Below are positions 6,301-35,930 of a DNA stretch of 64,000 nt, one piece after another. A program made the position numbers and the translations under genes. Under the pieces are notes generated by a model. It did not search any database, was not told where the DNA came from, and was given only the letters and a program-made list of their open reading frames with translations. The stretch's first letter is position 1, and each line of letters starts with the position of its first letter. Origin of the DNA: Zymoseptoria tritici IPO323. Lineage: Eukaryota; Ascomycota; Dothideomycetes; Mycosphaerellales; Mycosphaerellaceae. The DNA lies in the NCBI RefSeq assembly GCF_000219625.1, contig NC_018207.1, positions 992,001 to 1,056,000 on the forward strand. The letters run 5' to 3'.

Positions 6301-7480
6301 TGGCCTGCCAGGCGCACCAACGGCTATTGCATCTCCTGGAGGTAGCCATCTGGGTGGACTATTGGGCGGGACAGGACGCCTCATCAACACTATACGAGAG
6401 CAGAGCAGAAGTCGGCGCTCGGCTCGAGGGCTTTCCAGCGATCGCGGGTCTATAGCATCTGCCGACCAACACGGCGAGCCCAGTCTTGCAGTCAGCCAAA
6501 CTACCGTGGCCGGTCGTGTGCAGCCACCGGAATCACTGAGGGATGATCATACACCCGACTCCAGTCGTCGTAGTAGCCCGACACGGTCGCGCCAAGCATC
6601 CACCACGACAGATCACCTTGCTCCTGAAGTACCAGGCATCCTGTCTAGGATCAGCTCTACCAGCTCCGTCGCCTCAGTCGGCCGCATGATCCGCAATACT
6701 GTCTGGGGCGCCTCACAGGAGAGCAGCGTGGAGGACACCAAGCGAATCAATGAAGAGCGAGTCCGCAAGCTGGTCCGAGAAGGCAAAGATCGCGAGGAGG
6801 AGGCCCTGAGATCAACTCTTTCCTCACCCACTTCCATGACCTCGCCGACCTCCGAGGCCAATCCCTGCCCGCCCAGCCCTGATGATCTCACCGAATCGCG
6901 CTCTTCCTCCGCCGCCGACGTCTCCACCGCGGAGACCTCACTCGACGAGGTTAGTCCACTGAACCACCAGATGGGCCAAACTATGATCTCCAGCTCATCC
7001 GATCTTGCCTCCCAGGTCTCCATGTCCATGTCCAACCCCTCCATCCCATCCGTCATGTCCGAAGCTTCATCCGTTGACAAGCCCAACGGCGTCAACTCCG
7101 ACAAACACAGCAACGAAACCTCCTCAGACGACACCCTTCCCACTCCTTCCAACCACTTCGAAAACTACGACACCTTCGACGAAGGCTACAGTCCCGACCA
7201 AGAAGCCGCTTTCAGCAGCGAGCTGTCCGATGACTACGACTCGTCGGATAGCGACGGCGGATTGGTCATGCGCAGGAAGTCGGCGACTAAGAGTCCGCAC
7301 GCCTTGGCTGTGGCGGTGGAGACTGCGGAGAAGGGTCCTGAGAGGAGAGGTACGGGACTGTCGATGAGGTCGAAGAAGAGCGAGAGGAGTGGGAGTAATA
7401 ACACTATGCGGAAGGTGCGGACGAGGGATAGCGCGGACGGGGAGGGGAGGAGGTCGTTGGAGACGAGGAGGGAGGATTGA
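3314..7480 (+). CDS. CaMKK/Ssp1/Sak1-like serine/threonine protein kinase
   Basis: Upstream kinase of the Ca2+/calmodulin-dependent kinase kinase class, which activates AMPK/Snf1-type or CaMK kinases in yeasts and filamentous fungi. The frame is open from 3227, but ATG at 3314 (context GGCCATGTCG) is the likelier start, giving 1388 aa without introns. Numbered from 3227, the glycine loop G-R-G-T-H-G-K-V is near residue 300, VAIK lysine 323, HRD aspartate 642 and DFG aspartate 660; the kinase domain ends near H-P-W-V at about 830. A charged, Ser-rich insertion of about 200 residues separates the hinge (IVLEW) from the catalytic helix. Long Ser/Thr-rich tails flank the domain and are probably disordered. 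Substrate is inferred from family only. Confidence 0.88.
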   Translation: MSTEFLMTEEKSREDGVGGEYNAGDVEDTPRSELPPAVEAVTPTAPEATARQALAASAGDGVDYFTPQPATAIRPPTHDHFQNVSLNSSTASVSSSGATATGHIALPSQRPEPHTTISSISAESTDSTATVRPLYTPEKRYYPSPKPYPNQSLAALHEQPYVQRYRTGPPTLAQTNQVRTFASAIASQHTGGVRSAQQSPASPSHGLFQFAGPPSAPALESSETSGGVYASPFLHFTHKHVPKETHIADVDVDPISGRKLINHYEIVDELGRGTHGKVKLGRDLTTEGTFVAIKIVERFSKRRKLGRLGTTEDKVKKEVAILKKARHPNIVGLLEVIDDPNRKKVYIVLEWVERGEINWRVKGNKDIAMIEARRYERERSKLEDERLKAEDRAVVEEAQKRLEKEKRRKARAFRKMKLMHRDNPAHWSIEMAGDSETEDDEDDRLSRVSSMTSESVTSRAYPDNSRRPSRAVGTDQLEYSASSSSLARHAMSAAESDRMSASAISVPNSSEAELARRTSSAFSLTGLEGTMYGSYEPAGSLPSRVASLPSSLRGSQEGSTEGLSHIAAEILDSHLDPELEYVPIMTLEQCRVAFRDTLLGLQYLHYQGIVHRDIKPPNLLATYDNRVKISDFGVSYLGKPVRDGESEDVSEGEAYDLDDEAKELAKTVGTPAFYAPELCFTEPTEEPVPVTKAIDVWAMGITLFCMLFARTPFVDSEYVVMRQIADEEIYIPDKRLQPVDSKPKSRPTSHARAYEPTASSRRGELDLIYEDISDELQDLLHRLLIKDPRHRITLEEVRHHPWVLEDINNKDKWLEETDPSRHSKGKKIEVSKEDVNTAVVPLNLVERMRSGVKKLTEKVMGISSTRSRAHSSASASNHASPAPSPGSSSSTISQDLRRQSMFGDESIFSALKASRDHEHPLSKSVAVSPELEKDEKYFDNTAARVHNANMNLTRTPSRPDPPQRAMTMASVAGSMRTVRQSDYHRNSNGESPPTSPGLPGAPTAIASPGGSHLGGLLGGTGRLINTIREQSRSRRSARGLSSDRGSIASADQHGEPSLAVSQTTVAGRVQPPESLRDDHTPDSSRRSSPTRSRQASTTTDHLAPEVPGILSRISSTSSVASVGRMIRNTVWGASQESSVEDTKRINEERVRKLVREGKDREEEALRSTLSSPTSMTSPTSEANPCPPSPDDLTESRSSSAADVSTAETSLDEVSPLNHQMGQTMISSSSDLASQVSMSMSNPSIPSVMSEASSVDKPNGVNSDKHSNETSSDDTLPTPSNHFENYDTFDEGYSPDQEAAFSSELSDDYDSSDSDGGLVMRRKSATKSPHALAVAVETAEKGPERRGTGLSMRSKKSERSGSNNTMRKVRTRDSADGEGRRSLETRRED

Positions 7481-20787: not shown

Positions 20788-22612
20788 ATGTCAAGCCAAC
20801 ACACCAAGGGCGCTCAATCCGCGCAGAACGCCATCCTCGACGAGCTCCGCAAATCCCTCAAACAACAGGCCCGCACAGCGACCTTCGCCCTCGGCGGCAG
20901 CGTACCCATCTCCACCTCCGAAGAGTCCACCACCAAACCGGCCCTGAACTCCATAGAACGACCTTCTCACATCAGTCACCCTATCCGTCCAAGCACCTCC
21001 ACCCTTCGTCCCAGCAAGCCTGTTCACATCCGCTTCGGTCAGCCCGGCACAGGCAACAATCTCATCCTTCCCACAGCCCCTACCTCCCCTACCCTTCAGC
21101 ACCTCATACAAGCCTGCACTCCCGCCTCCTTTGGTCTCAATGGCAGAGACATCCACGATGCTAATTACCGCAAAGCCGGAAAGCTTGACACCACCGACTT
21201 CGCTACATCTTTCTGCCCCTACGAGACGGGCATCGTGGATGTCATCAACCAGGTCCTCGTCACGGATCCGTGTCTAGGAACCAGAGCCGAGCTGTACAAG
21301 CTAAATGTATACAGCGCGCCGTCGGGACTGTTCCGGGCGCATGTCGATACGCCGAGGGGTGAGGAGCAGTTCGGAAGTCTGGTCGTATCGTTGCCGGTGG
21401 CGCATGAAGGTAAGTTCTCATCGAGTTGAGCATGTAGGACCTGGTTGACGATCGAACAGGTGGCGAGCTCGTCGTTCGACACGGCGGCAAGAACGTGGTG
21501 TTCGATTGGTCCACTTCCGGGTCAAAAGATAGCCAGTCGGCTTTGCAGTGGGCTGCGTTCTACAGCGATTGCGAACATGAGGTGCTGGAAGTCACTTCTG
21601 GGCATCGCATCACTTTGACGTATAATCTCTACACCACTCGAGCTGGGGGAACACTGGCCGGGCTTGAGTCTGCTCTGGAAGCCAGGAGATTTCCTCTGTC
21701 TCTGTATGCTTCTCTGGAGACAGCCTTGGGTCGTCCAGACTTTCTGCCGAGCGGTACGTCAATCATGTCCACCAATGCCATACCACGTGAAAGCTGACCA
21801 TACTCAGGCCGCGTGCTCGCCATCCACCTCACCCACGCATACGCCCATACATCATCCCACCACAGCCTCCTTCCCAGCTCCTTGAAAGGAGCAGACTTCG
21901 CAATCTACGAGACAGCCAAATCCCTCGGATTGAATTGCTACGTGCGACCCATTTTCAGAGACGAATGGGAAGACTGTGACTCGGACGGCGACTTCGATAC
22001 CTCTTGCACGATCCTCGGCGGCAGATTCGCCGAGCTGAGTATGGGACAGCGTGAGATGGAAAGTGGACGCGAGAAGATGGAATTTATGCGTGAGGTACTG
22101 GATGAGGGTGAGAGGTGGAAGCCCAGCAAGGTGACCTGGATTAACCCGGAGCAAGAGGCTTCCATAGCCGCTCAGTCGGCTATCATGGCAGTAAGCTCTT
22201 CCACCCAGTCCCTCTTCGCTTCAATCCGCTGACCTCTTCGCAGTACGGCAACCAAGCGGAGCTAGAATTACAGTACTCTCGGGCCTGCCTCCTCATTCGC
22301 GTTCCTCGATTCGCCGAGCGCGTTGGTCACGAAGTCGCTGGCCACTCCAAGATCTTCCGCGGGATCGAGCGGGACGCCGGGAGGGCTGAGAAAGATGATG
22401 TGAGCAGTACGGACAGCGAGAGGGAAATGCAGATCGACAAGGAAGATATTGGATCTCATTTCACGTCTTTCGATGCTGGACCTCATGTCACGTATTATCC
22501 GAAAGACTACGGCAGACCGATGACGGCTGTGGAACAAATGCTCGAGAGGCAGAGGCAGAAATTCGGGGATTGGCAGGAGGAGAAGGTGAGTTTCGAGAGC
22601 TTCACGGAATAG
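20788..22612 (+). CDS. 2-oxoglutarate/Fe(II)-dependent oxygenase (prolyl 4-hydroxylase-like fold)
   Basis: Four exons, 20788-21409, 21460-21753, 21808-22190 and 22244-22612, join in frame to 555 aa; each intron has GTAAGT/GTACGT-type donors and CAG acceptors. The oxygenase core lies around residues 180-280: Y-K-L-N-V-Y, F-R-A-H-V-D-T-P (iron ligands H and D), SLVVSLPVAHEGGELVVRHG across the first intron, then C-E-H-E-V with the second His and G-H-R-I-T-L-T-Y-N-L with the 2OG-binding Arg. This pattern is common in fungal proteins of unknown substrate. The C-terminal half has no recognised domain. Start MSSQHTKG at 20788 is chosen over 20662 because of its CATCATG context and position. Confidence 0.85.
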
Positions 22613-23732
22613 CCTGGTATTGCATCGCAGGGAACGATTCGTTACTGCAGCGAGGAGAGATGTGAAGTCAATTATTTCCGAAATTCGAGGGGTCGGTTTC
22701 GCCTCACCGAGCGACTCGCTTTCGCAGAGTGACGCCTGTCCTGACGGAATGTTCTCCCATCTTACATCAAATCCATGCCAATGACCGGACATGAAGACAT
22801 CGCCGAAGGATCGGACTGGCCTGCAAATTCGGACATATTCCGTGCGGCGGGCTTGCGACAACAGGACGTCCAACACCTGCGATGCATGATCGCTGAAAGG
22901 CCTGGAATCGCCTGATTTCGAGCACTTCTCGTCGACCCGGCAAGGCTGAGTATACTACAAGGACCCTTGTCGCTGCAACCAACGTCCTTGTCGCACCTCT
23001 CCCGTCTCCGTGTGGGCGGGCAATGATCTCTGTGCCAAGGATGGAGGAGTGCGCAATTGGGATGCGTCCGTTCGTCCTGTGTCGGCCAACTGCCATGGGG
23101 TTGTGGTATGAATTGGAAGATCGCCAAGCCAAGTCGAATCGGATGGTCGTAATTCTAGGGTGAGGCGCAGATCCAGGTCTTCGTCTGCCTCCTTCCTTGC
23201 AAAGAAGCCACCAATGCCAGGGAATGCCCGCAGTCGACGCCGACCACGCCGATATGCCAGCCTACTGTATCGTCACCATCCTGGCGACCGAACCCCGAAA
23301 GTGCGTACAGCTAATCTGACTAAGAAGGCAAGGAAATCCTCGATTGATCCTTGAAACCATTCCGACCTTCCCGGGCTATCGTGATGTGGACTCTTGATCT
23401 GTCCACAAACACCTGAGGAGAATACCTGTGGCAGTACTACTAGGCGAAATCCAGTTTTACAAGATGTCAGGCTGTAGCCATGGGTACTCCCTGCTGGCTG
23501 CCAGTCCGGAAGCTCAGGATGTCCGGGCGAGTGGCACACTCTGGACGGTGCGGAAACGGACGTCCGAGTAAGGCGGGCTGTGCAAGCTTTGTATGTCCAT
23601 CAACACTTATATGCTGTCCCGTTTCCTTTCATTCCTCCCTCTGCATCGCCTCAACAGCCCACTCCGCGTCTCAATCCAATTGCGCTCCACTTCGTCTCAA
23701 AAACCACCAACACACCACACCAACGGACCACA
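22613..23732. other. Intergenic, no gene recognised
   Basis: 1.1 kb between the oxygenase and the secreted protein gene. Short open frames on both strands look fortuitous. The last 130 bp are C/A-rich (ACCACAATG), typical of a fungal leader. Confidence 0.5.
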
Positions 23733-24046
23733 ATGAAGTTCCTCACCTCCCTCCTCCTCGCCGCAACAACCATACTGGCCACGGTCCACGCCGGCGATCG
23801 CATGCAATGCCGCGGCCGGACCGACGCTTACGTCAAGGACTTGTGCGAAAACGCCTCCGGTCGTTACGTAGGTCGCTTCACTATGCCCCGTGCGTGCTCT
23901 TTCAGCTGACTCCTCCGTGCCGGACACAGGAGTCCCCGACTTACTGCTGCCTCTCGGCGGACTATCACGATTATTTCATTGCTCAGTGCAACTCGGTCAA
24001 AGGAGGCGTTGGGTCGGACGCGCCTGCAGACCCTGTGAACTGTTAG
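23733..24046 (+). CDS. Small secreted cysteine-rich protein (83 aa)
   Basis: Exon 1 (23733-23867) and exon 2 (23930-24046) are joined by a 62-bp intron (GTAGGT donor, GCTGAC branch, ACACAG acceptor). The first 20 residues, MKFLTSLLLAATTILATVHA, are a clear signal peptide with an A-x-A-like cleavage site. The mature part has six Cys, C-x(n)-C-x(n)-CC-x(n)-C-x(n)-C, ending ...PVNC. Size, secretion signal and an even Cys count fit fungal effector-like or hydrophobin-like small proteins, though the spacing does not match the eight-Cys hydrophobin pattern. Without the intron, frame 1 ends early. No homologue recognised; function unknown. Confidence 0.7.
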
Positions 24047-24905
24047 TTCCGAATTGGAAGAGGGACACGGTTGTGGAGGAGGAGGAGGAGGAGGGAAGGG
24101 ACAAGGGACCTTGTGTATCGCCGTTCGATGGAGCCGAGGAGAGGGGAGAGGGAGCAGCATGTTGGCAGACCGGAAGAATTGGGACTACTCCTTCCTCTCC
24201 GTACTTATTGGTATTGATCGGCAGTGCAAACGAACTTCTGATTCGGACCTCATCACATTGCCGACGGCATGATCAGACACTCCTGCCTTCGCAAGACCCG
24301 TGTTCCTTCTGCTCGCAGTCGCACATACGCGAGGACCATGGCATTCTTGTGCTGCCGTGTATCCTTCGCCCGTACAAGTCAGGCTAAACTCTTGCCATCC
24401 CTTCGCCTTCTCCTCCGCGCAAATTCACTGAACAACTCAAAGACGCTGTTGAATAATGCTCCGTCGAATAAGTTGATGTGGCATTCTCGCTCGCCGAGCT
24501 GCGAGCACCTTTCCAGTGAACATCTCTGATTGCCACATCTCATATAGATGTATTCGCAGTGGATCGTTTTGGATATGTTGGGAGACCACGGTCCTCTTCA
24601 GCGGATAGACTAGATCCGGACCACCCATCCATCAAACACCAGAAATATCTTCAATACCGCCAAAAGTGTAGACGTGATCGCCATATCGACGCTGAAAGAG
24701 GGCGAGACCTTGGCAATTCCATGTCCAGGATAGCGGAGCTGTCATTGTTGTTCCTTCTTGGAATTACTGCATCTGGACTTGAATATCCACTAGGTCGTCT
24801 CAATAGCCCGCCTCACATTTATCGCCATCAACGCCAACGACCTCACTAGCCAGCATCCCGGTTCTGCAGGCTTCACCCTCGGACATCTTCAACGTGATAC
24901 GTCGC
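24047..24905. other. Intergenic, no gene recognised
   Basis: Contains a GGA/GAG-rich stretch just after the secreted-protein stop and short, unrelated open frames. No motif or repeat was recognised. Confidence 0.5.
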
Positions 24906-26007
24906 TCAGCTGAGTCGCACGACCACTTTCGCGGCACTGACGCCTTTTCTCACTCGATCGATTTCGAGCTGTATGGACTCAAAACCTTCTCCAATAATGA
25001 TAGGGTCAGGCTTGGGTTGCAATATTCCGTTCGCGAGAGCTTTCGCCATCCATTCATGAACGGCGTTGTACGTCTCGGACGCTCGTAATGCTGGTATACT
25101 GACTGTGGGACGGTGTCAGTGAGATGACCTTGAGGGGAGTAGCCAGACTTACGTCGAGTAACCTCTACGCCGCCCTCGTATTTCGTCTTTGCTGGCGTCA
25201 ACACTGCGGCGATCTTTCTCTTCCCTTCCACTTTCGCCAAAATTCGCGCGCAAGCAGGCAGTGTCTTCTCGTCGTCTGAAATGCAGTCCAGGACTCCAAC
25301 GACAGTCTTGCCTTTCAATGCAGCCACAATCTCGTCCTCGACTCTGGGATTCGAGTGATCGAAGACCTGCGCCGCACCCAATGCCTCACACAATCCATGA
25401 TTTCTCTTACTCGCAGTCGCAAAGACTTCATATCCTGCCGAACTCGCCATCTGCATCGCACAGCATCCCACACTCGAACTCCCTCCCCAAACCAACAGCG
25501 TTCCTCGATCTCTCCCACCACCATTCCTCAGCAACCCCTCCGTTGACAACCCCAAACGATCCGCGACAAACAATCCCGCCGCAGCCGTATCGCAAGCCAA
25601 AGGCAACACAACCGCCGGTTCAAGGTTGATACCATCCGGCACGATCGTCGTCGACTCATCGGAAATACTGGACATACCGCTGGAAGGCACTCATTTCCGG
25701 CCGTCTCGATTGGAGTCCACAAGCATTCGCCATAACTCGGTCTTCGGCCTTCCGCGTCGTGACTTTATCGCCGATAGCGACGATGGTGCCAGAGCAGTCG
25801 GCGCCGAGGATGGTAGGATAGATGGTTGGCCGGCCGGCGAGAGGTGGGTTATGGTACTGGATTTTGTGCTCGAGAGGTTTGATGGCTATGTAGGCGGTAT
25901 GGGGCATGATGTCGCTATGACCGGGAATGGGATAGGGAGCTGGAGCGATGAAGAGAGGAGAGGTTTTGGGAGGGGAGCCAGGCTGCGGTGTTGGTGGGTG
26001 TGGTCAT
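24906..26007 (-). pseudogene. Zinc-less alcohol dehydrogenase / enoyl reductase-like (MDR) gene with two frameshifts
   Basis: Family: medium-chain dehydrogenase/reductase of the fungal CipB/ToxD-like group (NAD(P)H-dependent quinone or enoyl reductases). From ATG 26007 the frame encodes NTAAWLP, then the family sequence continues in another frame as APAPYPIPG (shift near 25,960). A second shift near 25,670 separates S-A-F-Q-R-Y-V from S-D-E-S-T-T-I-V-P-D-G-I-N. The cofactor fold W-G-G-S-S-S-V-G is intact, and a good 50-bp intron (25152-25103) leads to the family C-terminus KGVSAAKVVVRLS ending at TGA 24906-24908. Both shifts lie near short homopolymers, so sequencing error is possible; otherwise a pseudogene. 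Confidence 0.7.
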
Positions 26008-26588
26008 GGTGTTTTATTCTTCTTTGACAGACAGAAAGAGAGAATGCTACACGTGAAAATCACACTGGTCCTACCTTGATATATGCGTCAACAGAGATGT
26101 CGTCGTCGTCGTGCCAAATGATTCAGATTCGGAGATAAGCTGCGCAACTGAACTGTGGTTAGTCCGACAGAAGATGCCATGTCCTCCTTCCTACCTCGCA
26201 AGTCGGGTTTGAGGGAGACCGGCCCAGTTGCATTGTTCGAGATTGTGGAAAGAGAAGAGCCTGCGAGCATGCGTATTTGGACGTGCCTTGTCTGCCTCGC
26301 TGTTTGTCCGTTTCAAGCGTCTGATTTGGACAAAAAGCCACATTCCTACTCCATCGAAGGCTGATATGTGTCCGATTGTATATGGAAGTCCGCAGAGTCT
26401 AGATGCCGCAGAAAGCCAAGAGGCGAGTCATGAAGGAGAGAATGAACAAGAAGACGTTCAGCTGGCTGGACTAGGAGCCGTTTGCGAGCCAGGCGTTCAT
26501 TCTAGCACGACTGCGTATTCCGCACAAAAACAGCCCGATTGGCCTACAACGCATCGTGGTCGCCGCCAGCCCTGCAAGGGTGAGACCA
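26008..26588. other. Intergenic, no gene recognised
   Basis: Lies between the reductase-like gene and the transposon. Ordinary base composition, with no TpA excess, so the mutation signal starts abruptly at the transposon boundary. Confidence 0.5.
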
Positions 26589-26597
26589 TTTCTTTCC
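26589..26597 (+). repeat. 9-bp target-site duplication, left copy
   Basis: TTTCTTTCC directly precedes the transposon end and is repeated directly after the other end (33658-33666). A 9-bp duplication is the usual size for Mutator-like elements. Confidence 0.7.
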
Positions 26598-26646
26598 GTG
26601 TATACAGCCCGGCCGACCAGTCGCACATGCCAAGCCGACTAGTTAA
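26598..26646 (+). repeat. Left terminal inverted repeat (49 bp)
   Basis: Compared with the reverse complement of 33609-33657, the last 18 bp (GCCAAGCCGACTAGTTAA) and an internal CGGCCGAC match exactly with the same 11-nt spacing. CAG followed by two C/T differences lies outside these, and the outermost seven bases match at four positions. Most differences are C/T or G/A, as RIP would produce. Confidence 0.8.
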
Positions 26647-26708
26647 ATTCCGACATTTTCGCGTTTAGGGTCGGCCGAGGAAGTGAGGGGTAGGCTTGGC
26701 ATTAGTGA

Positions 26709-29700
26709 AAAATCTTTATACGTAGCATCGCGACGCTGTTTTGTAAAATATTACGCAAAATCACACCTTTCTTTACTATAGATTTACTTAAGGCTTTGTG
26801 TACTAACGGGCTCTATAACGAGGACGATCTTTTCGAGGCTGCTTATACGATTACCCTACGAGACGAGAAGGTAGCCTAATATGTTATGTAACACGTTTCC
26901 GAACGTATTCGCGAACACATTCGAAAACGTGTTTATTCTAGCGTTAACTAACATATCGATCCCTATAGGACGTTCCGCTGCCCGACACTATTATCGCAGA
27001 GTATCGAGGTATCGTAACAATAGTAGCAGATATCGAGGTAGTATCTACAATACTAGAATATCCTAAGACGTATACGGCCGGCTACGCGTATATTATCGAC
27101 GCTCGAATAACGCCTAACCTTAAGGCGAAGCTAGAGAAATCGGGGCATTTGGCAAGCAGCGCTTTAACGTGTTACTAAACGTATTCCCGAACACGTTTAG
27201 TAACACGTTAAGCAATATGTTTCTCTTTCTTTTGCTTGCGACATTCGCTAACATGTTCCCCTACAGACCAAGTATTATATAATAAGAGACTATCTACCTA
27301 AGGACTCTTAGTGTCGATTCCTCGATAATGCTCCGTATATACGTATTGTTAGTACTTATAGCGGAATACGGGCTTACGAATATATTAAGCTATAGTATCT
27401 AACACAGAGCTATACCGAGGTTCCTATTAATTACTAGGAGAATTAGGATACCGAGCGGCTACTAATATCCTTGTTCGAGAGAGACAAGCGGAAGATCGAC
27501 GCGAACAGGTAAGTTACATCTATAACATGTTTTTTAACATGTTCGTTAATGTGTTCGGGAACACGTTAAACTACCGGTTCGGATATACTCGAACCTTAAC
27601 ACAATCGAAAACACGATCTAGGCCTCCGCAACGCCTAAACATGTTCGCGAACATGTTTAGGTTCGCTAACGCCTAACGCTAAAGGGGATAGGCCTAATAT
27701 AAGGAACCGGACTAAGGAGTCTAATATAGCCGAACGTGTTCGCGAACATGTTCTGGCTTTGCGAACATGTTCGAGCTTATGTTTTACCTCGACTAATAAT
27801 TTAATAGGTACTATTACTCGATTACGAGGTCCTTCGAGAGGCGGAGCGCGTGTAGCAATAAGAAGGCGGGTATCTCGCAATAACTAAGCTACTAGCCGGT
27901 ATTCGTGCGTAATATACGAACAGTAAGGGCAACATGTTCCTAAACGTGTTGCAGAACGTGTTCGCTAACGTGTTAAGCAGACTGTTTTAGGGCAACCTAA
28001 GGTTTATATTTAATGCCGATACTATATACCCTACGCCCGGTAGCATTACATTCGGTCGTTTGATCCTTACGGGGAAACCGATATTAACTATTTAGAGCTA
28101 CGGTTCGAGGATTCCTATACCCCCCTAACAGAGGCCTGCGAGATTGTCGAGACTGTTGCATTAAGGCGGCGCCTATGTAGTAAGTAAATACGTTCCTAAA
28201 CATGTTTATAAGTATATTACTTAATATGTCCCCTAATGCTTTTCTAGGTAAGGTCTATATATAAGGCGAGGGCGAGCTTGTTACACATCCGTATCCTATA
28301 AGGTTCGTCGTTTAGATTCCGAAGAATCTTGTCTAAACGCCGTATGCTATTCTTGTCTCTTAAGGCGTTTATAATTACGTTCCGCCGCCGCTAAACAAGA
28401 TGCTGACAGAAGTTCAAAAAGAGCTAAAGGAAATTATCGAGCAAATGTACGATTTAGAGCTAACGACAGGTAAGCTATCTCGAAAGGCCCTTTAAAGATG
28501 TTGTATAAGATGTTTATAAACGTATTACGTAACACGTTGTCGAACATATTAGGCCGCTACTAACTAGTAATAGCTCGGTTCCTCGTTAGCCGATAAGTAA
28601 AGGACTACTAGGAGTTAAAGGGGAAGCCCTCCCTTAGCTAGGTTTATAACTCGTTGAACAATACGGCTAAGATTACAGCTTTAATCGACAAATAGAAGGC
28701 CCTATACTACCTAGACGGCCGTAATTTCTGTACTATGCTCCTAGACTACGAGCGGGAGAAGAGGGATCCTAAGACAGTAAGACCTATCTACCCGAACATG
28801 TTCGTTAATACGTTCTGGAATGTGTTAACGAACATGTTGCTTATTACATCTCCCGCTATATTAGCTAATACGATAAGTAATATATCTAAGGCGTCTTTAA
28901 CGACTATCTCGGCCCTATAGTACTCCTTTTTAACTAAGCATAGGCCTTTATCTTCTAGGAATAAGAATCGTTCGAATGCGATATATCTTTTAAAAGGCTA
29001 TAGGGCGAGAATCTAAACGAGATCCTCTTTACTATTTTTAAGAAGGAGATAGGCAAAAGTAAGTTTAAGGTATTAATAAATATGTTCTAGAACATGTTAT
29101 GCAATATGTTTCCCCTTTTTTAGCGGAGCTAGACGCCCTAGTCCGATCTTAGATGCCTAGGCGTCTAGCTTCGCTTAAAGGGGAAACCTAATATGTTTGT
29201 AGACATGTTTACGAACGTGTTTTCCGGCGTGTTCGTACTAACTTCGTAGTTATAACAATAGCTCGGGTTATTATTAGAACTAAGAATGCGACGACCTATA
29301 AAGTTGCCTTTCGACGTCTTTTTAAACGCATTTAGGAGGTAACAAACCGGCCTGTCGTATAGAAGTATATGTCCGGGCCGGATACGAAGGCCTTCTACGT
29401 AGTTATTATAGACTAGAGCGGGACTTAGTATTATAGTAAGGGGAACGGATCCTTTAATACGTTGCCGAGCGCGTTTGCGGATACGTTAACGAACATATTC
29501 GCTAATCTATTAAATAGGGTTTAGGAACTACCTAGCCTCTATCGATTCCTAGAATCGCCCTTAGTACGAGCACCTCCTCTATACCCTCGTGCTCTGTCGC
29601 GTACACTTTAAACGGAAGATCGAAGAACAGATAGGAAAGTATTAGCCCGAGGACGGTATCTAGCACCGGATGCTAGCTCTTGCCGATATTCAGTCGAAGG

Positions 29701-31056
29701 AGGAGTACTAGGCGCTAGTAAACATCCTAAAGAGTATATTTCGAGACATGTTACTTAATATGTTTAACAACATATTTATTAATGCTTTCGCTAATCTGTT
29801 GTTAGACTTCGAGCAAGACGAGCGCGTCTAGAACTAGGCCCGGAACAAGAGTAATCCTATTATTGCGGCTGCGATTAACTAAAACTGTACGAAGATAGAC
29901 AAAGATCTATACGATCGCGTTCGTAAATATATAAATTCTAACGAGCAGACCGGGCATAAGAGCAACGTAATAGGGCGACGGTAGAAAATAAAGCTAGCAA
30001 TTAAGAAGTAAGGTTCTACTTAACACATTTACGAAGATGTTTACGAATATGTTTACTAACGTGTCTAGATCCCGGATTCTCGACTTAAGGGACTATAACT
30101 AGTACTTTGCCCGGAAGAAGTAGGGCACTCTCTATTTATTCCGGAATCTATCTATAGCGTCGCGGTATGCCGATGTTAATACAAGAGCGCGTAAGTATTA
30201 GACTATAAGGGCAAGAATTACGTCGTAGAAGACGTTTATTAATATGTTAAGTAATATGTTGCCTAATATATTCGCTAACGCCTATTAGGGAATAGGCGAA
30301 ATAAAAAGATTGCGGCGATCTAGTAGGTAATTAACGAGCGGCACGACGACGATCCTAACTAGAGGAGCTCCCTAGACTTCGATAATGCCCCTAAACACGA
30401 TGCTAAACGCGAACAGGAGGCTGCCTACTTTCTAGGCGAGGAGACCGAGTCCGGCTAGCGTAGGAGCACTCTATCCGAAGGGGCTATACAGGGCGGGAGT
30501 GCACCAAAGCGCGCAAGGAGGGGGTCTTCCCCTCGAACGCGTTCGTTATCACGTTCGGCATCGCGTTTAGCATCGCGTTTAGTAGCGCCTCTATCTAGTT
30601 AGATACAGCTAAGCCTACTATAAAGGGCTATATCGGAGAATGTTCTACGGGATACTAGCGGAGGAGCAATGCAACCGCCGTCTTTAACGCGGGACGAATC
30701 CCCTTTAGCGGAATCGTCTATCTCGTTTGTAACGGCTGCTAACACGTACGTAAATACGTTCGCGAATATGTTGCGTAATATATTAATATACTTTTTAGGG
30801 CTGTACCTTCGCGTAAGGCTAAGAGCTAGGATCCTAATTACTAGGAAAGGCAGAGGGCTATATACGAGGTTCAAATGCTTTAGGCAAGGGTTCGGGAGGT
30901 GTAGGCTAATGCCCGGGCGAAGGAAATTAAGAATAAGCGTAAGGAACGAGAGGGTGTGCCGTAACATATTGCCAAACGTATTTACGAACGTGTTCCTCGA
31001 CATATTCGTTACCCTACGCCTGCCCCCTTTTATTCTAACCGGACGAAGGAGTCTAG
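26709..31056 (+). pseudogene. Transposase-like gene of the MULE, about 15 exons, many TAG/TAA stops
   Basis: Exons read by eye: ..26870, 26969-27151, 27267-27508, about 27.8-27922, about 27.99-28.18 kb, 28248-28469, 28574-28776, 28878-29058, 29250-29435, 29518-29733, 29806-30007, 30069-30190, 30289-30724, 30799-30960. Phases agree at most joins. With TAG/TAA read as former Gln/Trp the frame stays open. It shows H-P-Y-P-I-R-F-V-V-W-I-P, then G-V-Y-N-Y-V-P-P-P; Y-V-V-I-I-D-W followed by N-Y-L-A-S-I-D and L-C-R-V-H-F-K-R (DDE-like Asp, then C-x-x-H); and N-S-N-E-Q-x-x-H-K-S-N. I recall such blocks in fungal MULE-like proteins. The tail is basic, with P-K-R-A-R-R and a coiled coil. No stop is TGA. 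No start ATG identified; the 3' end is uncertain. Confidence 0.65.
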
Positions 31057-33405
31057 TATAGGGCCGGCTAACCCTAACGAACATGTTAGGCAACATGTTA
31101 GGTCTAGTAGCTATACCGAATGCCTGCGCTATAAGGTCTTTTAATTTATAGAGCCTCTATAGGATAAATAGACACTCTTTTGTGTTATATCTCGCCCTAT
31201 CGAGCCGTAGTTAAATACATACTAGGTATTTATATAGAGGGGACTGTTACGAGTAGCAAAAGTTATAAAGCTTACTTTCGAGTGCAACAACTAGATATAT
31301 TTAATAACTATATATAATTAGGCCCTATATATAAGATATATGCTCTTACTTAGTCTAGGAGCTCGAAATATATATAGCAAGGCGTGTAATCTACTTAGGA
31401 GACCTTTAGAGGTATATACGCCGGATATAAGCAATTAACATGTTGCTTAACATGTTTAAGGGCATGTTGCCGAATACGTTTCCCCGACTGTTAGACTCCT
31501 TAGTCCGGTTCTCTTTTTTCGGGCCCTTTTTTAGGCAAGGATTAGGCCTAGATTTATAGATAAAACATGTTATAGATTACGTTAACGAACATATTATTAA
31601 ACATATTATATAGTTAAATATTAGCATTAGTATTTAGTTTTTTCTAAAACTGTTAAACGAAGTTTTCTCGCCCTAAAACCTAAGGAAGAAGTCGAATATA
31701 TTCTCTAACATAATAGCGGAGGTAATGCTATTATACGGCGGGAAGAAAAAGAACATGTTCTAGGGTGTAGTAAACGTGTTAGCGAACGTGTTGCGTAATA
31801 TGTCTGCGAACATGTTACTCGCGAAGGCTATCGTCCTTAAAGAAGGTCTAGCTTAGGCAGGTCTCGCTGACCAGATCGTTAAAGTAGGCTAAAACATGTT
31901 AGTAAACATATTCCTTAATATATTAGTAATGTCTTACTCCTCTAACCGTGTTCCTTGCAGCTAGTGCATAGCATATTATAACCCTAGCTCTTTACTATCT
32001 TCTTTATCTCTAAGAAGTTAATCTGAATATGTTAGCAAACGTATTGCTAAACATATTACGGAATATGCTTACAGTATTCTTATTAGGACTACGAGTAATT
32101 ATTAGAACTTCTAGGCGTAGATCCGGGGCGGTAGGAGGAGCGGGAGCCGGAGCGGCGAACGGCTAAATACATTAGCGAACACGTTTGCGAACGTCTTTAT
32201 TAATATATTTAAAACTTACTCTAGTAAGCTTAGCCTTAGTAGGGGTCTTAGTCTTAGGAAGGGCTATACTACTACCCTAGCGCTTCTTGCTACTAGTTAG
32301 AGCCTTATCTATACTAGAATCCTAAACATGTTAGCGAATGCGTTACGGAAGATGTTCGTAAATATGTTACCTCGCTAGACTAAGAGTCCTTAGACTTATT
32401 ACTTAGCTCTACTAAGGTCTTAGACTTCTTTGCCTACTTCTTAGGGGTGCTGTAAACATGTTAGGGAACATAATAGCGAACGTGTTAGAGAACATGTTGT
32501 ACCGGGTACTCTACTTTCCTTAGTCCTCGTTACGCCTTAACTTTATATGCGCCTTAATTATGCCCTTATAGAAGGCTGTAGCAAACGTGTTAGTTAACGT
32601 ATTCCTAAATGTAATAAGGAACATATTACCCTTAGATTTATCTACTACATTTGCCGCCTAACGTCTAGTGCTAGAACCTACCTAGTTAATAACTTCGAAC
32701 TTGTACTAGAATATGTTAGCAAATATGTTATAGGATATGTTAGAAGTGCTAACTTATATAGGTCTTGTAGTAGTTGCGAAGAGCCCTAGTAGTCTCGTAT
32801 ACCTTCTACAATATATTAGCTAACATATTACCTAATAGGTTTAGTATTAATATACACGGTACTAGAGCATAGTCTTCTCCTCCGACTTAGACTTAGAGAG
32901 CTCGAGGTCCGACTCTCTATCTAGTAGCTAGGTACCCTTCTACGAACGTATTAGAGAACGCGTTCTGTAACGTATTGCCTAATATATTGTTTCTTACCTT
33001 AAGACGATATATAATCTCGCCTACCTAAATGTTCTAGCTTAAGATAGACTTCCTATTCTTCTCCTATAGTATATTAACATATTATTTAATATGTTACTAA
33101 ATATAATATATCTCTTATAATTAGCATCTCCTCGAAGCCTAGAATCGGTATGCTATTAGAGTAGTACTTCTTATATTACTCGTATATAGCCTAAATATGT
33201 TAGCTAACATATTTGTTTTCTTATTTAAAATGTCCCTTCTCTTATATAATTCTCTAGCTACTTTCTAGACATATTAGCGATCGTGTTAGGTATCGTGTTA
33301 GGTATCGTGTTCGGTATCGTGTTCGGTTGTGTTCGTATACGGTTTAGGATAGGGGGGGGGGCTACAGGCTCTAATCTTAACGTGTTAGTAAACATGTTCC
33401 TAAAC
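26880..33405. repeat. More than 30 clusters of palindromic 12-bp tandem units, almost all in introns
   Basis: Unit AACRYRTTNNNN (variants AAY/AAG, RYR centre), repeated 2-5 times at exactly 12-bp steps. Clusters begin near 26,891, 27,166, 27,522, 27,638, 27,734, 27,931, 28,189, 28,498, 28,794, 29,074, 29,190, 29,458, 29,752, 30,019, 30,235, 30,541, 30,738, 30,963, 31,079, 31,436, 31,566, 31,752, 31,892, 32,039, 32,166, 32,327, 32,456, 32,584, 32,706, 32,816, 32,944, 33,076, 33,192, 33,269 and 33,376. AACATGTTCGCGAACATGTT at 27,638 is a perfect 20-bp palindrome. Units lie between splice donor and acceptor of both genes, and the last unit often supplies the CTAAC branch site. One cluster (30,541-30,595) falls within an open exon. 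Confidence 0.85.
31620..33190 (-). pseudogene. Second gene of the transposon, unrecognised product, multi-exon, RIP stops
   Basis: Minus-strand exons bounded by GTAAG-type donors and TAG/CAG acceptors: 33190-33098, 33063-32998 (22 codons), 32939-32858, about 32.8 kb, 32321-32220 (34 codons), 32162-32073 (30 codons), 32022-31947, 31888-31819, 31759-about 31630. With TAG/TAA taken as Gln/Trp each reads open, for example S-I-L-S-W-N-I-W-V-G-E-I-I-Y-R-L-K, then a Ser/Lys/Pro-rich basic segment, then M-L-C-T-S-C-K-E-H. The CxxC suggests a small zinc site. I recognise no family. Convergent with the transposase-like gene; the 5' part beyond 33,190 is unclear. It may be an accessory gene comparable to extra genes carried by other MULEs. 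Confidence 0.5.
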
Positions 33406-33608
33406 ATGTCTAGCCTTACTTTACTTTTAGTATGTGCGTATATGCAAATATTGCTTTTGTAGTATACATACGATAAAAGGGAAGTAATAATAGTACTAGA
33501 ATAGTGTAGAATAGTAGTAGATAGTCGTTACTTATATGTTAGTGTAGGGTGTTAAAGAGAGAAAGAATTCAAGTAGTGTGCCGAACTTTTGAGTAGTAGG
33601 CTTGGCAC

Positions 33609-33657
33609 TTAACTAGTCGGCTTGGCGATAACTAATAGTCGGCCGAACTGAATCCTC
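33609..33657 (-). repeat. Right terminal inverted repeat (49 bp)
   Basis: Inverted partner of 26598-26646. It carries TTAACTAGTCGGCTTGGC at 33609-33626 and GTCGGCCG at 33638-33645, ends in CTG plus seven bases and is followed at once by TTTCTTTCC. Confidence 0.8.
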
Positions 33658-33666
33658 TTTCTTTCC
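33658..33666 (+). repeat. 9-bp target-site duplication, right copy
   Basis: TTTCTTTCC, identical to 26589-26597 and placed exactly as far (7 nt) from the CAG/CTG of its inverted repeat as the left copy. Confidence 0.7.
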
Positions 33667-33987
33667 CACGTCCCACGTTGTTGGGACGGGAAGACAAAAA
33701 ACATCATTCCACCTTTTGCTCGCATGAATCTCTTCGAAAGACTATTGCATGCAGGTTCGGCGACGCCGATCAGGCCTGGAAGCTGAAAGCCGGTCAGGCC
33801 ACCACGTGGAGTATCTCCTTCCGGCATGGCGCTGGCGTTCCACGAGTGATCACTGGTCGGAAGTGTGACCTCGTAGACGCCTCGCACGCCAACGACGCCT
33901 CGACCGCGTCGACTTCCACCGTTTCAGGTAGGTGTGTGTGATTTTCCTTAAGCGCGGACGCAGTGAAGGGAGAAATGCAGACCTCCC

Positions 33988-33993
33988 TATAAG
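33988..33993 (+). promoter_or_regulatory. TATA-like box of the GH71 gene
   Basis: TATAAG, 74 nt upstream of the ATG at 34067, within CTCCCTATAAGTACG. The gap 33,667-34,066 holds no other gene. Confidence 0.4.
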
Positions 33994-34066
33994 TACGTGG
34001 CGACCTCCCCTCGGCCTTGTGAGGATGATGTGGAAATCATCATCAATTGTTGACTGACGACCGATC

Positions 34067-35930
34067 ATGCAGTGGCTCACCCTTCTGGCATCTGCCCTTG
34101 CGGGTATGGCGACCGTCGATGCAAAGGCTGTTGTCGCCCATTTCATGATGGTGAATGCCGATTATTACGCTGTTTCGGACTGGCAGACGGATATTGCAGA
34201 TGCACAGGCGGCGAAGATTGATGGGTTTGCTCTCAATTTTGCGGCGGATCAGGCAGATCGACTGGTGAGTATCAATTCGTGTCTTTGTGTCGACTATCCT
34301 TACTGATCCGTGCACCACAGGCAAATCAGGTTGCAAACGCATTCCAAGCCGCAAATGCTGCGGGCTTCAAGCTCATGTTCAGCTTCGACTATGCGGGAGC
34401 CGGAGCATGGGACTCTTCCAAGGTCATCAGCTACCTGAAGCAGTACGGCGGGAACTCGGCTCATCTGCAGTACAACGGAAAGCCGGTGGTCAATACGTAA
34501 GTGGACGAGTTGCTTCTATTCCATCAGAAGCTAACATTTCGTCCAGCTTCGAGGGACCACAAAGCTCGGGCGACTGGCCAAATATCAAGTCACAAACCGG
34601 CTGCTTCTTCATGCCAGAATGGGACTCTATCGGACCCTCACAAGCCGCCACAACTTCAAATAGTGTCGCCGATGGTCTATTCTCTTGGACAGCATGGCCC
34701 AACGGTGCCAACGACATGGGTACTGGGAACGATCAGGCCTACAAATCAGCACTAGGCGGCAAGCCCTACATGATGGCTGTCTCTCCCTGGTTCTACACCA
34801 ACGTTCCTGGCTTCAACAAGAACTGGCTGTGGCGAGGTGACGATCTCTGGTTCGATCGTTGGTCGCAAGTCCAGGCCTTACAACCAGAGTTGGTACAGAT
34901 TGTCACATGGAACGACTGGCCGGAGTCGAGCTACATCAGCCCACTCAGAGGCGACAAGTCCTACAGCGCTTTCTCTGCTGGAAACGCAAACTACAACTAC
35001 GCACTGGACATGCCGCACGACGGCTGGAGAACGCTGTTGCCTTACCGAATCGACATGTACAAGAACAACGCCGCGACCATCACCTCCGAGGCAGCCTCAT
35101 TCTGGTACCGAACCAACCCCAAGGACTCTTGCAACACCGGCGGCACCCTCGCCAACGCTCCCTGGCAGTCACAGCTACAGCCCAGCCAAGTCGTCCAAGA
35201 CAAGGTCTTCTTCACCGCTCTCCTCTCCTCTGCCGCAGACGTCAGCGTCACCGTAGGCGGCCAAACCCAGAACGGCACATGGACGAAGACGCCCGCGAAC
35301 GGCGGCGCAGGTCTCTATCACGGCAGCGCCAACTTCAACGGCCGAACCGGCGCGGTGTCCATCATCATCTCTAGGAAAGGCACCACCGTCCTCCAACAAA
35401 CCGGCAAAACCATCTCCACGAGCTGCACAAACGGCAACTCGAACTGGAACGCATGGGTCGGAAGTGTAACTGGTCGAACATTGCCCAACGCCGTCAGAGT
35501 GGACGCCTCGGGCGCAAGCACTACGATCGGTGCTGTAGCATCTACAACCGCGCCGGTCACGTCTTCGACCACCGCGCCGGCGACTTCTACCTCCGCTTCA
35601 AGGTCAGCCAGCTCCACTCCTGCCAAATCTTCCTCCACGACCTCGAGTCGAACCACAGCTACGAGTCGAGCTAACACGACCACTACGAGGAATAGCTCTC
35701 TTACCAGCTCCGCTACCAGCTCCCCAACCACCCCCGCATCGACGACTCGTGTCTCCACCACAGCCAACACAGCCACAACAGTCACAGCGACTGTAACCGT
35801 CACGGCGAGTGCGACGGCGACAAGTACCGTCACGACGACTGTTGCGCCGACGAGTAATGCTTCCACGTCGGCGAAGTCGACGGCGACATATACGATGCAG
35901 GGAACGTGTACTTGTAAATGCGAGTTGTAG
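34067..35930 (+). CDS. Secreted glycoside hydrolase family 71 (alpha-1,3-glucanase / mutanase)
   Basis: Exons 34067-34264, 34321-34496 and 34547-35930 join to 585 aa. Residues 1-19, MQWLTLLASALAGMATVDA, form a signal peptide. The catalytic module follows: V-V-A-H-F-M at the start of the barrel, I-D-G-F-A-L-N, F-K-L-M-F-S-F-D-Y-A-G, P-E-W-D-S-I-G, G-L-F-S-W-T-A-W-P, and QIVTWNDWPESSYISPL, which is characteristic of GH71. A C-terminal Ser/Thr-rich linker of about 130 residues ends in a short Cys-containing tail (T-C-T-C-K-C-E-L). GH71 enzymes hydrolyse alpha-1,3-glucan of fungal cell walls, in self-remodelling or attack on other fungi. The gene starts 400 bp beyond the transposon, which may have separated it from upstream control. 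Confidence 0.93.

Follow-up and report, generated by a model that had tools for sequence, protein, structure and literature searches.

Palindromic 12-bp units in the modelled introns of two distantly related transposon families of Zymoseptoria tritici

The window analysed here is a stretch of 64,000 bp from Zymoseptoria tritici IPO323 (contig NC_018207.1, positions 992,001 to 1,056,000), and coordinates are those of the window unless a contig or locus is named. It contains a transposon, referred to as family 1, with two convergent genes. The 12 introns modelled in gene 1, which encodes a transposase-like product, all hold units of an 8-bp palindromic word repeated at a 12-bp pitch, and similar clusters of units accompany gene 2. 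A second transposon family in the same genome, family 2, is a distant relative that carries a different palindromic word at the same pitch.

The element and its copies

The preliminary description of this DNA placed the element at 26880–33405; its location stands, while its limits, set by eye where the flanks of the copies diverge, are corrected to those in Table 1. A search of the genome (39.7 Mb in 21 contigs) found five copies of family 1, on contigs C12, C1, C8, C9 and C10, at least two of which are split by later insertions. Identity among the copies is 92–97% in matches longer than 300 bp, and gaps are few. Target-site duplications were judged in the two of the five copies with both ends seen (C12 and C8), the copy on C8 being flanked on either side by the nine bases TACGCAACG, recognised by eye. 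Three short matches to the beginning of gene 1, at C9:253k, C10:1398k and C10:1412k, are probably displaced 5′ pieces, and chains of units are present at two of these loci.

Among the two-state polymorphic columns covered by four or more copies, 687 of 714 are C/T or G/A changes, mainly in CpA (TpG) and next in CpG context, and CA/TG is depleted in every copy. This transition bias and depletion point to repeat-induced point mutation (RIP) or a similar process in all five copies. In the gene frames, TAG stands where the open frame suggests W or Q.

Mutator-like elements (MULEs) have target-site duplications of 8–11 bp, mostly 9 bp, and a transposase with a DDE core and a CxxH motif. The present element resembles them in its terminal inverted repeats and 9-bp target duplications (9–10 bp in family 2), and two D residues and a CxxH-like motif (C-R-x-x-F), recognised by eye in gene 1, are common to both families. 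Pfam searches returned no MULE match for six read-through frames of family 1 or for gene 1 of family 2, each giving one weak, unrelated match below the cut-off (E 0.036 and 0.051, respectively). The MULE identity proposed at the outset is thus backed by the target duplications and not by Pfam. Among the 50 matches listed from a genome search with PF10551, most of which have an in-frame TAG, none lies by coordinates on either family. Unlike both families, four PF10551 loci of approximately 3.3 kb show no 12-bp palindromic arrays.

Palindromic units in the modelled introns

Each unit consists of an 8-bp dyad, AACRYGTT in its least-mutated form, and a 4-base spacer, and the units follow one another at a rigid 12-bp pitch. 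The window has 71 occurrences of AACRYRTT, 68 of them within the 26–33 kb bins, and the exact chains of this form at 12 bp comprise 27 starts with two units, nine with three and three with four. The form AAYRYRTT, which admits RIP products, has 101 exact sites in the element; these form 51 pairs at lag 12, 30 at lag 24 and 17 at lag 36, and at most three at any other lag up to 60. Of consecutive exact units within 40 bp of each other, 62 of 64 stand at 12, 24 or 36. With one mismatch allowed, the units group into 39 or 40 clusters depending on the merging rule, 22 in the gene 1 half and 17 in the gene 2 half, in agreement with the more than 30 clusters at a strict 12-bp period first reported for both genes. 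The clusters, about 40 in all, are two to seven unit lengths long, most often four (17/40).

A scan of 64 palindromic patterns at lags 9–24 gave 69 pairs of AACNNGTT at lag 12 in the element. In 20 comparison stretches, made up of eight flank stretches of the window (excluding 21001–26597 and 33658–35000) and 12 other loci, the largest count was nine pairs. Genome-wide, (AACRYRTTNNNN)3 gave at least 43 matches, counted on both strands with some overlapping, and all those listed lie by coordinates inside the five family 1 copies; its reversed control pattern gave none.

When the least-mutated base is taken in each column, the commonest unit is AACATGTT (28 of 142), followed by AACGTGTT (17), from which the word is read as AACRYGTT. 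Part of the R/Y variation in the word as first described is RIP damage; AATATGTT, AACATATT and similar units fit as RIP products of AACRYGTT. CpA sites are mutated less often inside units (343/698) than outside (872/1375), yet are not spared. All five copies being RIP-mutated, the arrays could in principle be a by-product of RIP and base composition, an idea to which we give practically no credence. RIP generates no 12-bp period; the 12 other loci, several of them likewise depleted in CA/TG, reach at most nine pairs; and the window copy has both the highest CA/TG and the most AACNNGTT pairs (69 against 35–47 in the others, which are partly incomplete).

The introns are models built from sequence, and since cluster positions guided the intron calls, the placement of units in them is partly circular; support independent of the clusters comes from the strand asymmetry of splice signals, from reading frame and from cross-family exon matches. 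Gene 1 is modelled with 11 GT-AG introns and one GC-AG intron, of 61–299 bp (Table 1), and units stand in register in all 12. In a span reaching up to 100 bp beyond intron 12, these introns contain 47 of 49 exact units and all 27 exact lag-12 pairs, a density of 34.8 units per kb against 0.9 per kb in exons; with one mismatch they contain 68 of 81 units and 48 of 51 pairs. In these models the units of gene 1 lie in introns, in line with the preliminary description; the clusters at 30741–31099 lie beyond the modelled introns.

Since the units are palindromic, splice signals near them would be expected equally on the two strands if the clusters were not introns. A combined branch and acceptor signal follows 12 of the 22 clusters of the family 1 gene 1 half on the plus strand against one on the minus strand, and accompanies 13 of the 17 clusters of the gene 2 half on the minus strand against five on the plus strand. 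The corresponding counts for gene strand against other strand in family 2 are 10 of 13 against none (gene 1 half) and 14 of 19 against two (gene 2 half). Donors behave similarly, with 12 against four of 22 and six against two of 17 in the two halves of family 1, and 11 against two of 13 and 10 against four of 19 in those of family 2. A splice model blind to the units, which was trained on the modelled gene 1 exons and performed poorly, placed in introns 49 of 57 exact units of family 1 gene 1 (introns covering 42% of the span), 10 of 22 of family 2 gene 1 (12%), 22 of 34 of family 2 gene 2 (45%) and six of 10 of family 1 gene 2 (one intron, 50%). The equivalent figures for one-mismatch pairs were 47/60, 4/11, 18/29 and 4/12. 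This model supports the predicted intron placement in gene 1, and hardly in gene 2.

Table 1. Features of the family 1 element in the window; intron limits are modelled.
Feature	Position	Strand	Remarks
Left target-site duplication	26589–26597		TTTCTTTCC; by eye
Transposon, family 1	26598–33657	none	7060 bp; limits by eye
Left terminal inverted repeat	26598–26646	+	imperfect; by eye; shared core CGGCCGAC...CCAAGCCGACTAGTTAA
Gene 1, transposase-like	26779–30550	+	3′ end may reach ~31100; broken by in-frame TAG/TAA
Intron 1	26871–26968	+	unit cluster 26878–26957
Intron 2	27152–27266	+	GC-AG; cluster 27166–27221, plus a unit at the branch site
Intron 3	27509–27807	+	several clusters; family 1 only; exon phase uncertain
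Intron 4	27923–27990	+	68 bp holding donor, four units and acceptor
Intron 5	28180–28247	+	five units
Intron 6	28470–28567	+	five units
Intron 7	28777–28877	+	four in-register units
Intron 8	29059–29249	+	two clusters; imperfect hairpin ~29105–29190
Intron 9	29436–29517	+	five units
Intron 10	29734–29805	+	five units, the first overlapping the donor
Intron 11	30008–30068	+	four units
Intron 12	30191–30288	+	four units
Three clusters beyond the modelled introns	30741–30784, 30963–31006, 31080–31099
Gene 2	31430–33500	−	convergent; many small exons; limits approximate
Unit clusters of the gene 2 half (17)	31437–33410	−	centres mostly 90–160 bp apart, beside minus-strand splice signals
Right terminal inverted repeat	33609–33657	−	by eye
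Right target-site duplication	33658–33666		TTTCTTTCC, the same nine bases as at the left; by eye

The imperfect hairpin in modelled intron 8 matches at 79% over 91 columns and lies beside unit arrays. A near-identical stretch (approximately ACCGGACYAAGGAGTCTAA) recurs close to unit arrays at 27690–27725, 31030–31070 and 31485–31515, and is also found in family 2 (L057 ~5650), although the proteins are only approximately 30% identical. In the copy on C1, a 320-bp segment (L008 ~7053–7372) is inverted, with ends in or next to two unit clusters; the inversion looks like recombination between palindromic arrays.

A second family with another word

Searching the genome with the product of gene 1 revealed a relative that is 30% identical over one exon (E 2.9e-4), and 30% identical in the alignment. 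This family 2 has six copies of approximately 7 kb, with target duplications of 9–10 bp, by eye, in the five copies with both ends seen, and also seems to have two convergent genes. The 64-pattern scan of its copy on C2 gave TAANNTTA, and not AACNNGTT, as the leading pattern, with 44 pairs at lag 12 against 10 for the next. The register is equally strict (24 of 25 consecutive exact units within 40 bp at 12, 24 or 36), and one rule yields 32 clusters, of which the gene 1 half has 13 and the gene 2 half 19. The 12 introns modelled in family 2 gene 1 contain 19 of 22 exact units and, with one mismatch, 39 of 61 units and all 11 pairs.

Introns stand at matching positions in the two families, in keeping with the preliminary description: judged by eye, all family 1 introns but one (11 of 12) find a counterpart in family 2 no more than a few residues away, the last two being least sure. 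When nine family 2 exons were compared with the family 1 element by tblastn, the best matches of eight fell in the right order and strand (E 1.5e-7 to 0.27); one exon had no match and three had extra, misplaced ones. Some cross-family alignments stop where an intron is modelled, as at 28468, immediately ahead of intron 6. For gene 2, only one of 11 pieces matched at the corresponding place and on the right strand (E 0.02); gene 2 seems to be far more diverged than gene 1, and its exons are less certain.

As modelled, the shared set of introns holds one word in family 1 and another in family 2. Exact lag-12 pairs of AAYRYRTT number 22–54 in seven pieces of the five family 1 copies, where TAANNTTA has none; the six family 2 copies have 5–28 pairs of TAANNTTA and none of AAYRYRTT. 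With one mismatch, pairs of the foreign word number 0–7 in family 1 and 1–2 in family 2. Three tandem copies of TAAKRTTA match 11 times genome-wide, eight times within the examined family 2 copies and three times at C1:1196849–1198743, which is taken as the far half of a split family 2 copy at C1:1185k, a reading supported by an exon match at C1:1194321. No relatives were found at E ≤ 0.001 among public predicted proteins, the candidates being limited to those sharing short words, and none in an IMG/VR scan.

Period-12 arrays of a related word at 30536–30591 and 33268–33323 (ATCGCGTT, ATCGTGTT) and, in family 2, at L057 8425–8468 (TAAGGTAA) can be read as protein (RSLSRSASR, NTIPNTIP and TLPATSPATLP) and are possible exceptions to the intron rule. 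Such a coding-readable array occurs at the start of gene 2 in both families. It is very improbable that the arrays as a whole are in-frame coding repeats and most introns misplaced. Besides the readable arrays at 30536–30591 and at the gene 2 start, that explanation can draw on the unit-blind splice model, which read through several family 2 clusters, and on the lengths of the modelled family 2 introns, seven of 12 of which are multiples of three. It is contradicted by the lengths of the family 1 introns, 11 of 12 of which are not multiples of three, by branch-acceptor signals that follow the gene strand despite the palindromic units, and by the cross-family exon matches that stop near modelled introns.

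Two further observations concern the family 2 copies. One (L026 6280–10000) is interrupted by an element resembling a long terminal repeat retrotransposon, with a gag-like translation by eye and CA/TG depletion. Two others (L057 213–1759 and L058 1–1570) have left flanks that are similar over approximately 1.5 kb and right flanks that are not, with target duplications that are related yet different.

Possible role of the arrays

The placement of units in modelled introns, their pitch, the conserved core and variable spacer, the independent half-sites, the family specificity and the matching intron positions were all shown computationally. The case that something is selected is good, and that for what is selected is moderate. 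Spacer positions are variable, with entropies (of 2 bits) of 1.82–1.89 in family 1 and 1.69–1.84 in family 2 against 0.25–1.19 and 0.00–1.63 for core positions, and spacer length is fixed. The half-sites, AACR/YGTT in family 1 and TAAB/VTTA in family 2, vary independently: self-complementarity of the unit centre equals the shuffled level (89 of 148, p 0.39, in family 1; 24 of 98, p 0.94, in family 2). In family 2, A is almost never found at position 4 (0.01), nor T at position 5 (0.01), and this rule is the same on both strands. Independent half-sites are the pattern expected from a dimeric DNA-binding protein.

We infer protein binding, and tentatively favour, at slightly less than even confidence, the explanation that the units are a binding array for a dimeric, family-specific protein. 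Each unit would be a double-stranded DNA site in which a half-site, AACR in family 1 and TAAB in family 2, is paired with an inverted second one, with one site every 12 bp. The binder would most likely be encoded by the element itself, gene 2 being the candidate; the apparently far greater divergence of gene 2 than of gene 1 would be expected if gene 2 encoded a family-specific binder. By lying in spliceosomal introns, the arrays could span the body of the element without harming its proteins, and protein bound along it may mark or protect the element, an anti-silencing or element-identity purpose like that of VANC for VANDAL in Arabidopsis.

The preliminary description knew of no MULE or fungal transposon whose introns all consist of one palindromic minisatellite. 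Family-specific arrays of motifs do occur in introns of one described MULE group, VANDAL/VANC of Arabidopsis (PMC5735166). VANC21 binds YAGTATTAY (PMC5735166, PMC10398659), which forms arrays in the noncoding parts of VANDAL21, among them the introns of VANB21 and VANC21 and the region upstream of VANA21; the targets of VANC6 carry other motifs, and VANC proteins cause loss of silent marks. The likeness to the fungal families lies in the family-specific arrays of a short motif in a DNA transposon, introns included, and in a related family with different motifs (PMC5735166, PMC10398659). The VANC21 motif is a nine-base word in one orientation that also occurs upstream of a gene and whose tandem repeats expand and contract, whereas the fungal unit, an 8-bp dyad, recurs strictly every 12 bp, in every modelled family 1 gene 1 intron and hardly outside introns. 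Binding by VANC21 is demonstrated, while the fungal arrays have a candidate binder. The element is similar in layout to VANDAL/VANC and is not filed as that system, given its candidate binder and the near absence of units from noncoding DNA outside introns.

Several observations weigh against a binding array. In noncoding DNA outside introns, as delimited by our own gene models, exact units number none in 747 bp of family 1 and one in 1386 bp of family 2, so that arrays of the VANDAL type, for example upstream of genes, are absent there save for these counts; the intergenic part of family 2 also has two one-mismatch pairs. Only nine of the 12 modelled family 2 introns hold two units at the 12-bp register. 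Overlap of the last unit with the branch site is frequent, leaving room for a splicing role. No recognisable domain was found in gene 2 by Pfam search, and no intact copy was seen. Finally, adjacent family 1 spacers are borderline alike (p 0.052), and distinct spacers are fewer than expected under independent positions in family 1 (62 of 102 against 75.4, P < 0.0005) and in family 2 (31 of 44 against 36.7, P 0.001). Some copying of units, or some spacer preference, is likely, and the shortage of distinct spacers weakens the case for binding and strengthens that for copying.

The scarcity of units outside introns is the strongest point for a role at the intron or RNA level, which we retain as an unlikely alternative. 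Neighbouring units could pair as 8-bp stems with 4-base loops, to which the 8+4 pitch is suited, or bind an RNA-binding protein, aiding the splicing of many short exons; the frequent overlap of the last unit with a branch-like site would fit. Yet no covariation was seen between the centres of neighbouring units (family 1, 159 of 216 pairings, shuffled 159.4, p 0.59; family 2, 54 of 132, shuffled 50.5, p 0.28), in a test that covered the unit centres and not the nearly fixed arms. The sense strand folds no better than the antisense strand (−7.24 against −7.16 kcal/mol, p 0.31, in family 1; −3.45 against −4.12 kcal/mol, p 0.18, in family 2), and an Rfam search gave no match at gathering scores. 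Selection does not seem to act on base pairing, and RNA hairpins as the main constraint were rejected on these tests. Duplication of branch points was rejected as well: C precedes TAAC in only 10% of family 2 units and the two bases before AAC are mixed in family 1, so only some units form a branch site.

A selfish minisatellite in concerted evolution, whose units spread without function, inside an intron or from one to another, through slippage, template switching or conversion and are tolerated there, is unlikely, though the shortage of distinct spacers in both families speaks for it. So do the single word found across the introns of each family, differing between families, and the C1 inversion with its ends at unit clusters. 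Copying of whole units would, however, carry the spacers along, yet most spacers are distinct, their entropy is high and their length fixed. Similarity between adjacent spacers barely exceeds that between shuffled ones (p 0.052 in family 1, p 0.32 in family 2), the few gaps between copies imply that arrays change little in length, and there is hardly any spread into other noncoding DNA. Plain whole-unit slippage was rejected on the variability of the spacers, some copying still being likely. Of the three mechanisms first offered for the units, protein-binding sites thus fit best, hairpins that aid splicing find no support in the pairing tests, and a self-spreading intron-borne repeat is partly consistent with the data.

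Fungal introns that resemble one another and carry symmetrical sequence are also known as introner-like elements and symmetrical stwintrons, which, according to PMC8469720, are whole introns, with long inverted repeats, that arise at new sites in genes. In the present families, by contrast, intron positions are common to families approximately 30% identical and only a short word recurs among introns; introner-like insertion was rejected on the shared positions. No fungal transposon with such introns was found by title or abstract start in the open-access literature, subscription journals lying largely outside that search.

A more specific form of the binding explanation, possible but doubtful, is that the tiny introns are kept as a DNA docking array for a co-evolving, element-encoded dimer, and that both genes changed word together between families, with intron positions and pitch preserved. 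The introns would then be maintained for their role as DNA, which would give a reason why so compact a transposon retains dozens of them and would allow intron function to be tested at the level of DNA. If protein binding is correct, sequence-specific anti-silencing would have a counterpart in fungi, coded simply by a dyad word of constant pitch, and the divergence of the words of two families within one genome would open a change of specificity directly to study.

Adjoining the element, a host gene at 34070–34500 has the start sequence AKAVVAHFMMVNADYY, which we take to resemble the start of fungal GH71 alpha-1,3-glucanases.

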